Part shown: positions 2,701 to 9,730 of the stretch, in pieces | Position numbering within the stretch: position 1 is the first letter of the stretch | Layout of the letters: each line of letters begins with the position of its first letter | Source of the DNA: Terriglobales bacterium | GTDB taxonomy: Bacteria; Acidobacteriota; Terriglobia; Terriglobales; Acidobacteriaceae | Direction of reading: 5' to 3' | DNA length: 64,000 nt | NCBI GenBank assembly: GCA_035624455.1 | Contig: DASPRM010000025.1 | Span: forward strand, 124,001 to 188,000 | Made by a program: the position numbers and the translations under genes | The notes under the pieces: generated by a model | What the model was told of the DNA's origin: nothing | The model's input: only the letters and a program-made list of their open reading frames with translations | Database searches by the model: none

Positions 2701-3282
2701 ATGCTTCGACCAAGCAATTTTGTAGCGGCGATGATACTCGCCATGCTCGGCATCACCGCATCTGCCCAATCTACTTCACCGCGTTCCAACACAGCATTGG
2801 ACAGTATCCTGGTCTGCGGAGACGGTTTCGTTTTTGCGCTGAAGGAGCCGCAGAGCTGGCGCTGCATTTGAGGGCAGCGCGCAACTCAGTACCAGGCTAA
2901 TGCCGTGCTATTTCCGAGTTCAGCAGACTCACGAGCGCACCGCGTTGAGATCCGCGTCCGGGTTAATAAGAAGGTGGACGAGAACACGCTCGAGGATTTG
3001 AATTCCGATATGCGCCAATACAAGAAAGAATACCCAAAGGTGCAGTTTGCTGCCTTAGACGTAGCTCATCCCGAATATCGGACCCACGCAAAACTGTTCC
3101 TGTTTCCAGGCGACTTCTACGACTACGTTGCTTATCTCAACCCTGGACCAAATTCCTGGTTCACTCTCTCGGTTTCGATGACAAAGGAGAAGGTTCCTGC
3201 AACTCAGGACGAACTGGCTGCCTATGCAAACGTGCTCAAGTCGTTGTACGTTCCCGCTGGCAAGTCTTCGCAAACACATTGA
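2701..3282 (+). pseudogene. Secreted protein gene interrupted by an in-frame TGA (2869-2871)
   Basis: An ATG at 2701 opens a frame with a good signal peptide (hydrophobic core, cleavage near 'ITASAQ') and the start of a mature domain ('DGFVFALKEPQSWRC'). It stops at TGA 2869-2871, then continues in the same frame without a further stop to 3282 with a plausible folded segment ('HRVEIRVRVNKK', 'FYDYVAYLNPG', 'AAYANVLKSLYV'). The two halves read like one ~190-residue exported protein. The simplest reading is a nonsense mutation. Readthrough or selenocysteine is possible in principle, but the hairpin downstream (2888-2909) has a UAAU loop without the usual G, so support is weak. Family not recognised. 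Confidence 0.55.
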
Positions 3283-3413
3283 CATCTCAACCAGATTTTT
3301 CAGAAAGCAATTGGTTGTGTCCCCGGGTTCTGGATCGTCCACCCAACCATACCGCATGACTTCCCATCCAACTTCGTGATAGAAGTTTCTGCCAGCCTCA
3401 CAGGCATTCCAAC

Positions 3414-4139
3414 ATGACTTCTGAACTGAGTGGTTCCGGCATTTTGCCGGGCGCGTGCCAAAAATTGCAGAGCAGGAAATCCAAGCTACTTTTGGCCATG
3501 TTGGGCCCGCTGGTCATTCTGGCGACCCTCGCCTACGCCGCCAAGCAGTACACGCCGCCGCGCATCTATAACGCCAAAACCTATCCCGCGCGCGACGAGC
3601 ATCCGATGGAAAAGATCACCGTTGCTGGCGATCCCTACGATCTGCAGGAGAAGGAGGAGGCCGCGTTCCATCTCAAGTACAAGGAGAACGGGTTCCTGCC
3701 GATCCTGCTGGTCATATCGAATGATGGAGACGCGCCCATCTCGGTGTTGAACCTGAAAATCGAATATGTGACCGGAACGCGCAAGGCGAAGCTGCTGCCG
3801 GCGACCGAAGACGACTTGTATCGGCGGTTTTCGCATTTGGAGCGCCGGGGCGACGAGCCCAGCCGCAATCCCACACCCATTCCGCTGCCCCGCAAGGGAC
3901 CGAAAACCGGTGTCTCGGCGGAAGGACGGGACGAATTTCAGGCCTCCATGTTCAAGGCAAAGGCCGTGGAGCCACATGAAAACCAGGCCGGGTTCGTGTT
4001 TTTCGATGTTGAGGGCATCTCGCAGCCCCTGGCAGGCTCGCATTTGTATGTTTCCGGTCTCAAAGACAACAATGGCCAGGAGCTGATGTACTTCGAAATC
4101 CCCATGGAGAAGTACCTGACGTACCAGCCGGTGAAGTAG
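3414..4139 (+). CDS. Membrane-anchored protein of unknown function
   Basis: A 241-residue protein with a basic N-terminus and one transmembrane segment at about residues 24-41 ('LLLAMLGPLVILATLAYAA'), followed by a ~195-residue domain predicted to be outside the membrane. The domain is rich in beta-strand-like segments ('GFLPILLVISNDGDAPISVL', 'ENQAGFVFFDVEG', 'GSHLYVSGLK'), giving an immunoglobulin-like impression. No catalytic motif is visible. The ATG at 3414 is the only reasonable start. It is not obviously in an operon. The function cannot be assigned. Confidence 0.7.
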   Translation: MTSELSGSGILPGACQKLQSRKSKLLLAMLGPLVILATLAYAAKQYTPPRIYNAKTYPARDEHPMEKITVAGDPYDLQEKEEAAFHLKYKENGFLPILLVISNDGDAPISVLNLKIEYVTGTRKAKLLPATEDDLYRRFSHLERRGDEPSRNPTPIPLPRKGPKTGVSAEGRDEFQASMFKAKAVEPHENQAGFVFFDVEGISQPLAGSHLYVSGLKDNNGQELMYFEIPMEKYLTYQPVK

Positions 4140-8847: not shown

Positions 8848-8956
8848 TTATGACCGAGTAAGTCTCGGCGGGCAATTTTTGAGTGCCGATCGGGCGGCTG
8901 TGCTGGAAGATAATCGGGCGTCCGGCGATCGGAGAGCGAGTAAAAGGAGCTTGCTG

Positions 8957-9730
8957 ATGAGCGGGAAAATTCTCTTAGGCGTTGGCCGGGAACTTCGGAC
9001 TACTTCGGATGACAAATTTGTAGAAGCGATCAGAAATCTTCCCGATCGAATGGCGAAGCGACTGGCCTTCATGTCACCGGATCACCACGTCATCCGCGAC
9101 TTCGTGGTGCGGGAACTGCCGCGACAAGTGAAGCCACAGCCGCTCTCGCCGGCGCAGATTGCGCAGGTCACGGCGTTGGAAGTCGCGAAAGTATCGGCCA
9201 TCCTGCAAGATTTGGAAGAGCATCTTTTTTTTCTCGTGCGCGACGCCGGTGGGAATGTGAACTGGGCATTTCCCGTGACCACAGATCGGACGCCACATCG
9301 GCTGACATTCTCTACTGGCGAGCATACCTTTGGCGCTTGAGCGGAGGATGCCTTCGCTACGTCCTTCGTCGAAGGACGCCTTCGGGGAGAAAAGCTGCGG
9401 GTGCGCATCGATTCCGAATGCCAGCATTGCGCGCGCCCGCTGGCAATCGAAGTCGATGATGATCTCAGGTGGCAGGTTCTCTCGGACGGCGCTTCTCCGT
9501 TGCTGTTCGAGCCTGACATTAACTGGGCGAGCTTTCGCGGAATAAACATCATCCACGACTATTGAAATCAGACCGTATTCTTCTGGTCAGAAGAACATGC
9601 CCGTGATTATCGCCGCACTCATCAGCAACCCGATGGAGCTTACCTGACAATGGATCAGGCGGCCTTTTCCGAGCGCTACGCCCAATCGGGCCTGTTTGCA
9701 ATCGCCGGAGATGGGGAGCTGCGAAGGTAG
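8957..9730 (+). CDS. MerB-fold (organomercurial lyase-like) protein with two predicted selenocysteines
   Basis: Read through TGA 9338-9340 and TGA 9563-9565, this frame gives a 257-residue protein ending at TAG 9730. Residues ~1-95 are helical/winged-helix ('LSPAQIAQVTALEVAKVSAI'). The MerB core follows: 'TPHRLTFSTGEHTFGA', U128, 'AEDAFATSFVEGRLRG', a CxxC at 155/158 ('SECQHC'), 'LLFEPDINWASFRG', 'NIIHDY', U203, 'NQTVFFWSEEHARDY'. Recalled E. coli MerB has 'WCALD' (Cys96, Asp99) and 'SFCCHVHFFAS' (Cys159); U128, D131 and U203 align to these catalytic residues. A hairpin follows each TGA. The start is ATG 8957 behind AAAAGGAG. Inference: a Sec-containing lyase or related thiol/selenol enzyme. 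The alternative is a pseudogene with two TGAs; conventional callers would stop at 9340. No merA/merR or sel genes lie nearby. Confidence 0.8.
9360..9378 (+). promoter_or_regulatory. Candidate bacterial SECIS hairpin 1
   Basis: CGTCCTTC (9360-9367) pairs perfectly with GAAGGACG (9371-9378), leaving loop GTC. The loop starts 27 nt after the TGA at 9338-9340, within the 16-37 nt range described for bacterial SECIS elements, and has G then U at its first positions. It lies inside the coding frame. Caution: CGAAGGAC also occurs at the end of the dispersed intergenic repeat family. Confidence 0.7.
9574..9599 (+). promoter_or_regulatory. Candidate bacterial SECIS hairpin 2
   Basis: TTCTTCT (9578-9584) pairs perfectly with AGAAGAA (9589-9595) around a GGTC tetraloop, which is the apical loop I recall for the E. 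coli fdhF SECIS. The stem continues weakly outwards after one mismatch (CGT/ATG, including a wobble). The loop begins 19 nt after the TGA at 9563-9565, within the accepted range. Confidence 0.72.

Follow-up and report, generated by a model that had tools for sequence, protein, structure and literature searches.

MerB-like proteins and proteins with two selenocysteines

The catalytic residues of the alkylmercury lyase MerB are Cys96, Asp99 and Cys159. SaoL, a MerB-like organometallic lyase of the SAO system, carries one selenocysteine (Sec), placed in a Cys-Sec pair, and is the sole MerB entry in the table of a 2026 review, which counts 119 prokaryotic selenoprotein families (PMC13188914). A 2022 review similarly features one alkylmercury lyase MerB-like entry (PMC9312934). 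Proteins hosting two Sec residues are also on record, and MbdU, MduS, TsoB, UXX-star fusions and others are given as such in the 2026 review (PMC13188914). By term search, MerB is absent from the main texts of Zhang and Gladyshev 2008, Peng 2016 and the deep-Sep paper. Literature searches turned up no paper on a MerB with two Sec residues, and a preliminary description of the gene analysed here knew of no such protein; a mention in Haft and Gwadz 2023 or in Haft and Tolstoy 2025 is possible.

The gene shares with MerB (PF03243; PDB 1s6l, 3f0o, 3f2f; MerB2 5c17) the predicted fold, N-terminal winged helix included, and retains the positions at which MerB has its two catalytic chalcogens and Asp99. 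It differs from MerB in having Sec codons, not Cys, at both catalytic places, in the identity to MerB structures, which is 16-19%, in about 20-24 extra N-terminal residues found before the stretch aligned to the crystal structures, and in a CxxC motif in place of a single Cys of the aligned MerB chains. Like SaoL, the product is a MerB-like predicted selenoprotein, and the Sec of a SaoL protein found in this work (locus L128, see below) falls on the column of its second Sec. In contrast to the single Sec of SaoL, set in a Cys-Sec pair, Sec is predicted at both places, and the residue immediately preceding the second one is a tyrosine (Tyr202-Sec203). As Sec at the second place is common to the published SaoL, the new element is Sec at the first place. 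The presence of two Sec residues is a trait in common with MbdU, MduS, TsoB and the UXX-star fusions; the MbdU model (NF045648) is however not among the five NCBIfam matches listed for the protein at E values up to 1.

A coding sequence with two in-frame TGA codons

The window, as the whole stretch of 64,000 nucleotides analysed is called here, derives from a Terriglobales bacterium and hosts the gene at positions 8957-9730 of the forward strand. A likely ribosome-binding site, AAGGAG, can be read at 8944-8949 on the same strand, at a distance of 7 bases from the ATG at 8957. Reading of the frame confirmed that it includes exactly two internal stops, TGA both times, at 9338-9340 and 9563-9565, before the terminator TAG at 9728-9730. 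When both TGAs are taken as Sec (Sec128 and Sec203), the product is 257 amino acids long. TGA is the terminator of three of the seven neighbouring ORFs of the window that were checked, and is therefore not reassigned wholesale.

The preliminary description regarded the sequence as one coherent protein across both TGAs, and substitution rates agree with it in all three segments. In 12 comparisons involving four relatives, dN is well under dS upstream of the first codon, in the stretch that separates it from the second, and downstream of the latter. Over the read-through protein dN ranges from 0.10 to 0.31; dS exceeds 1, and is hence near saturation, in 10 of the comparisons, and is not estimable in two. 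The predicted read-through protein is under purifying selection as a whole, including the part that follows both TGAs. A gene caller halting at the first TGA leaves out the C-terminal half, and the family is for this reason easily overlooked.

Homologues and codons at the two Sec positions

When 396 genomes of the window's phylum were searched with the protein, 12 matches were obtained in 11 genomes. Eight of these, the window among them, have both TGAs, two are partial and have the second TGA only, and one is a distant Cys/Cys protein (L025); the last (L026), a match of 62 residues only, was left out of the family set. Scanning genome contigs with an alignment of eight members led to 119 relatives, the best 80 of which were analysed. 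TGA is found in 78 of these best 80 at the first column, where the other two have TGC and TGT, respectively, and in all 80 at the second column. The aligned region includes eight further TGAs, located at columns 250-256, which are taken for ordinary gene ends. The best 80 relatives are all from MAGs, and are distributed among Acidobacteriota, Chloroflexota, deltaproteobacterial groups, KSB1, Bacteroidota, Rokuibacteriota, Binatia, Nitrospirae and others. They were found via the peptides FFWSEEH and DA[IFV][AI][TA][PS]FV[QE]. Since these overlap the hairpins described below, and not the Sec columns, Cys forms with altered peptides could escape.

A profile search of 297 genomes in the phylum of G398 (Desulfobacterales) matched 16 genomes, and identified five distant relatives as well as 11 members, each of which has both TGAs. 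In the 396 and 297 genomes, by searches independent of the peptides, Cys/Cys proteins were found only as distant relatives (L025 and L129), and never as close ones. Relatives were found neither in viral contigs nor on plasmids.

After seven duplicates had been taken out, 92 distinct loci, window included, cover both columns. The combination is TGA/TGA in 90 and Cys/TGA in two, and no other combination occurs; TGA is found at the second column of all 92 full loci and of two partial ones. Homologues with Cys or UGA at both columns, to which the preliminary description had looked for support, are thus the only ones encountered, and the recurrence of both TGAs in 90 loci bears out its opinion that two chance nonsense changes at these places would be an unlikely coincidence. 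Interchange of Sec and Cys is seen in the two Cys/TGA loci, as well as in distant Cys/Cys and Cys/Sec relatives.

SECIS-like hairpins

A SECIS-like hairpin is found just downstream of each TGA. The first, at 9360-9378 of the forward strand, is supported by pairing, codon conservation and folding energy. It is made of 19 bases, starts 22 bases downstream of the T of the TGA, and has the stem CGTCCTT/AAGGACG, closed by the loop CGTCG in the window and CGTGC in most relatives. The survey covered the window and 80 loci (81 rows, two of which have Cys at the first column), and pairs were counted in 77 TGA rows, two duplicates being left out. The inner five pairs are formed in 77 of 77 rows, and the outer two of the seven pairs in 52 and 70; one of the inner pairs is C-G in 70 rows and T-A in seven. 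Compared to synonymous recodings, the hairpin is more stable (mean z -2.67 in 79 genes), with p <=0.05 in 85% of the 79 genes, as against 3-9% at nine control places. For the hairpin of the window itself p is 0.00.

The second hairpin, TTCTTCT-GGTC-AGAAGAA, is located at 9578-9595 of the same strand, and its stem pairs are present in 80 or 81 of the 81 rows. A GGUC loop is found in the SECIS of E. coli fdhF. Extra stability relative to synonymous recodings is absent for this hairpin (mean z -0.43, 14% of genes at p <=0.05), because the protein sequence nearly dictates it. The support for this putative element is given by frozen synonymous codons, and not by folding energy. When the 79 columns with conserved residues are ranked by excess of synonymous conservation, 10 of the top 11 are columns 136-140 and 208-213, which correspond to the two hairpins. 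The codon for Ser211 is TCA in 74 of 80 loci, in comparison with a pooled usage of 16%.

A natural control is provided by L032 and L045, the two loci that encode Cys in place of the first Sec. In a quick tree, each is paired with a TGA/TGA sister, L032 with L031 (SH-aLRT 99) and L045 with L035 (SH-aLRT 100). In both, two inner pairs of the first hairpin are broken and the second hairpin is intact. The first hairpin is weaker than in TGA loci, yet in L032 it is still more stable than the majority of recodings (p 0.05; 0.14 in L045), which qualifies the control. Under Sec decoding, each of two separate Sec-to-Cys changes is expected to be accompanied by decay of the corresponding hairpin, as is seen here. 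These changes represent a clean natural experiment on the function of bacterial SECIS elements.

Selenocysteine machinery

The preliminary description had proposed to search the genome for the Sec machinery, and all of its components were found. The genome of the window (97.68% complete) features a tRNA-Sec above the Rfam cut-off, read by ARAGORN as tRNA-SeC with anticodon tca, as well as selB (351 bits), selA (558 bits) and selD (360 bits). The selD gene includes one internal TGA, and SelD itself is therefore probably a selenoprotein. selA scores over the cut-off in 250 of the 396 genomes of the phylum, so that its presence alone is weak evidence. Among 28 other carrier genomes, selA was found in 26 (seven of seven at E 2.5e-145 or better, plus 19 of 21 above the threshold). 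selB exceeded its own threshold in 25, and at least one of the two genes is present in 27. Over the cut-off, selA and selB are both missing in G404, selA in G104, and selB in G400 and G518, several of which are fragmented assemblies.

In locus L111 (1743-8245, minus strand) a two-Sec MerB-like gene is located about 0.56 kb upstream of a selA-selD-selB array, on the same strand. The selD gene of the array bears a C-terminal extension, which looks to us like an AhpD/CMD domain. A second selA and a second selB are found at other sites of the same genome. Among the loci compared, which differ in flank length, sel genes lie near the family gene at this one place only (L020/L111). Loci L108 and L109 were left out of this count, being taken as sel genes themselves. 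The link with selA-selD-selB is accordingly one case, and no rule.

Codon census, sel genes and a SECIS-like hairpin for each TGA support what had been proposed at the outset, that Sec replaces both catalytic thiols. UGA128 and UGA203 would each be decoded as Sec by SelB and tRNA-Sec, and two separate hairpins inside the coding sequence would direct the decoding, as suggested by their conservation and by the natural Cys control. We regard it as nearly certain, on the strength of sequence comparisons, that the acidobacterial gene encodes a genuine double selenoprotein of MerB fold. When a single genome is viewed alone, two in-frame stops may denote a pseudogene or an assembly error, and a general reassignment of TGA may also be thought of. 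This set of explanations has a negligible probability, and is refuted by the homologues. Both TGAs recur in 90 of 92 distinct loci, the sequence downstream of both is under purifying selection, SECIS-like hairpins are found at both, and TGA is used as an ordinary stop in three of seven neighbours. An assembly error in particular would not produce the same two TGAs in 90 of 92 loci from many phyla.

Fold and active site

The window protein matches the MerB domain PF03243 with 48.4 bits, the gathering cut-off being 27, and the same domain is matched by 67 of the 67 members scanned (E up to 0.001). In a single-sequence phmmer search of the PDB, a weak match to MerB2 only was obtained (E 0.13); the profile search then settled MerB. 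In the AlphaFold2 model of the protein the mean pLDDT is 94.6, and the top 11 Foldseek matches of the model are all MerB or MerB2. VIA-align gave Z scores of 19.4-21.9 to seven MerB/MerB2 crystal entries and of 11.7 to the MerB NMR entry 1s6l; the next fold is that of a winged-helix regulator, with Z 10.1. Residues 37-107 superpose on winged-helix regulators with Z 8.5-10.1.

Residues were assigned to MerB positions by a profile based on the alignment of 67 family members. Sec128, encoded by the TGA at 9338-9340, corresponds to the Cys of the WCALD stretch of MerB (Cys96), Asp131 (9347-9349) to Asp99, and Sec203, encoded by the TGA at 9563-9565, to Cys159, the first residue of the MerB cysteine pair; the second residue of the pair is Ser in the C160S mutant entry. 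The numbers Cys96, Asp99 and Cys159 are those which we take the aligned MerB columns to have. This alignment to MerB of known structure agrees with the column assignments of the same three residues in the preliminary description. Asp131 is conserved in 80 of 80 loci, and is invariant in the 67 aligned members. Cys155 falls on a Cys shared with MerB, presumably Cys117, and is part of a Cys155-x-x-Cys158 motif (9419-9430), each Cys of which is at least 90% conserved in the 67 rows. According to alignment and model, the predicted selenolates occupy the places of MerB Cys96 and Cys159, and the acid at the place of Asp99 is kept.

The NCBIfam cut-offs for MerB are not reached by the window protein, which scores 35.7 on NF033555 (cut-off 200) and 34.2 on NF009710 (cut-off 193). 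The SaoL model NF040728 is not reached either (39.5 bits, cut-off 140). SaoL and the two MerB models are the only NCBIfam entries hit by the window protein at E <0.01, and the only ones hit by the 67 aligned members in the June 2026 release at E up to 0.001. Four family members scored singly were found far under both the SaoL and the MerB cut-offs. A dedicated model of the two-Sec family is thus apparently absent from NCBIfam of June 2026.

Distant relatives

Of the distant relatives, L025 and L129 are Cys/Cys, and L128 and L130 are Cys/Sec. All four are long-branched, and their positions in the tree were not relied on. L128 (236-913) is SaoL by NCBIfam (NF040728, 175 bits, cut-off 140), and combines a first-column Cys with a second-column Sec. 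Its match to the model stops at residue 181, which corresponds to the last position of the model, and Sec is residue 182; the model ends before Sec as if built from truncated proteins. L130 (1510-2124) encodes a Cys/TGA MerB-like protein that is not SaoL by score (54.8, cut-off 140).

A second, separate group of Sec/Sec MerB-like proteins is represented by L131 (1474-2178) and L132 (1480-2175). These proteins have Glu at the place of Asp99, and their genes host two GGTC-loop hairpins of their own, as judged by single-sequence folding. Beside L131, in L134, are genes that look to us like those for a C-GCAxxG-C-C protein and for proteins similar to heterodisulfide reductase or glycolate oxidase.

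Gene neighbourhood

By Pfam, the genes flanking the family gene in the window include pantothenate synthesis genes and those for a methylpurine-DNA glycosylase, a STAS protein, a DUF2207 protein, a tRNA methyltransferase and a competence protein; three of the ten neighbours scanned have no Pfam match. The usual setting of SaoL is a SAO operon, which also encodes ABC-transporter selenoproteins. Neighbours differ between loci, and clustering of neighbours revealed no partner gene common to most loci. The largest cluster, found at 12 loci, looks generic, and contains what we take to be an ABC ATPase-like protein. No mer genes are present among 25 of the 63 families listed for 56 adjacent genes.

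Regulators are found among the 56 adjacent genes, eight being of the MerR family and four of MarR type. The MerR-family gene is directly upstream in eight loci (L047, at 2981-3559, L053, L059, L071, L076, L081, L091 and L103), seven of which belong to deltaproteobacterial groups. The seven MerR-family neighbours in which cysteines were counted have 0-3 of them. One MerR-family neighbour was scored, and reached 36.4 bits against a cut-off of 150.85 for the mercury-responsive MerR, being also far under the cut-offs for zinc, copper and cadmium sensors. By these scores, this neighbour is no recognised mercury sensor.

MerA (TIGR02053) is under the cut-off in the genome of the window, and is over the cut-off in one of the 28 other carriers. 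Weaker matches to flavoprotein reductases, under the MerA cut-off, were found in 26 of these 28 (E up to 1e-80).

Possible function

The whole of the evidence is best explained by a MerB-fold lyase that has two selenolates, obtained by Sec decoding, and works outside the mer system, a reading to which we assign a probability of roughly 60%. An organometal would be bound between both selenolates, and the carbon-metal bond would be protonolysed as by MerB. This activity would be exerted away from mer operons and, in most carriers, with no recognised MerA. Taken separately, organometal binding followed by MerB-like protonolysis, for which organomercury is the first candidate, is suggested by analogy with MerB, and the odds for it are even. 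As no mer operon was seen around the gene and MerA mostly goes unrecognised, the bound metal might, as a speculation, be transferred further, exported or retained in the form of an inert selenide. Two selenolates could hold mercury too tightly for turnover, and this chemical reasoning counts against a lyase.

The same tight hold on soft metals is what a protein that binds without cleaving, and acts as scavenger, store or chaperone, would exploit. Such a role is unlikely, even if the CxxC motif is conserved, neighbours differ between loci, and MerA is under the cut-off in 27 of the 28 other carriers, so that no obvious taker of the product is found. Asp131, at the place of MerB Asp99, is in fact invariant and would be superfluous for mere binding, and the second two-Sec group has there a Glu, an acid all the same. 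A redox enzyme built on the MerB scaffold, either through a diselenide or through selenolates and CxxC working as peroxidase or reductase, with no metals involved, is less probable still. The extension of SelD in L111, AhpD/CMD-like in appearance, may point to such a chemistry. Most uncharacterised selenoproteins are deemed likely redox proteins in the 2026 review (PMC13188914). Against redox catalysis, the arrangement of the MerB active site is retained, acid included, and the extra CxxC is conserved at about 90% only. It is very improbable that the protein is a Sec-based sensor or transcription factor, contacting DNA by the N-terminal winged helix and sensing soft metals by the selenolates. 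Residues 37-107 match winged-helix regulators, as reported above, but the entire model, winged helix included, fits MerB at Z values of about 19-22, and separate regulators of MerR and MarR type adjoin the gene in eight and four of the 56 neighbours.

If the protein is an enzyme, as in the favoured reading of a two-selenolate lyase, it would be rare among enzymes in having selenium as both of its catalytic chalcogens, and thiol and selenol could be compared on the MerB scaffold, the mechanism of which is known. Should it cleave organomercury, the genomes that host it would go unnoticed in surveys of methylmercury demethylation based on ordinary merB. It is a possible, though doubtful, extension that the family is a widespread class of carbon-metal lyases, so far undescribed, with selenols in place of both catalytic thiols, that it acts with neither a mer operon nor a recognised MerA, and that it provides a missing route for the breakdown of methylmercury or other organometals. 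Were this true, breakdown would take place in Sec-using, mostly uncultivated bacteria, in some of them beside hgcA.

Co-occurrence with hgcA

The mercury methylation gene hgcA scores over the cut-off in nine of 29 carriers, a figure that comes with no base rate and is thus suggestive only. Six of the nine belong to the 11 carriers of the G398-phylum sample. In G203 (contig C102, 948-1898) the HgcA found over the cut-off is encoded by a sequence with one internal TGA, which agrees with the listing of HgcA as a selenoprotein in the 2026 review (PMC13188914). Two partial HgcA pieces, besides the nine, were found in G482.
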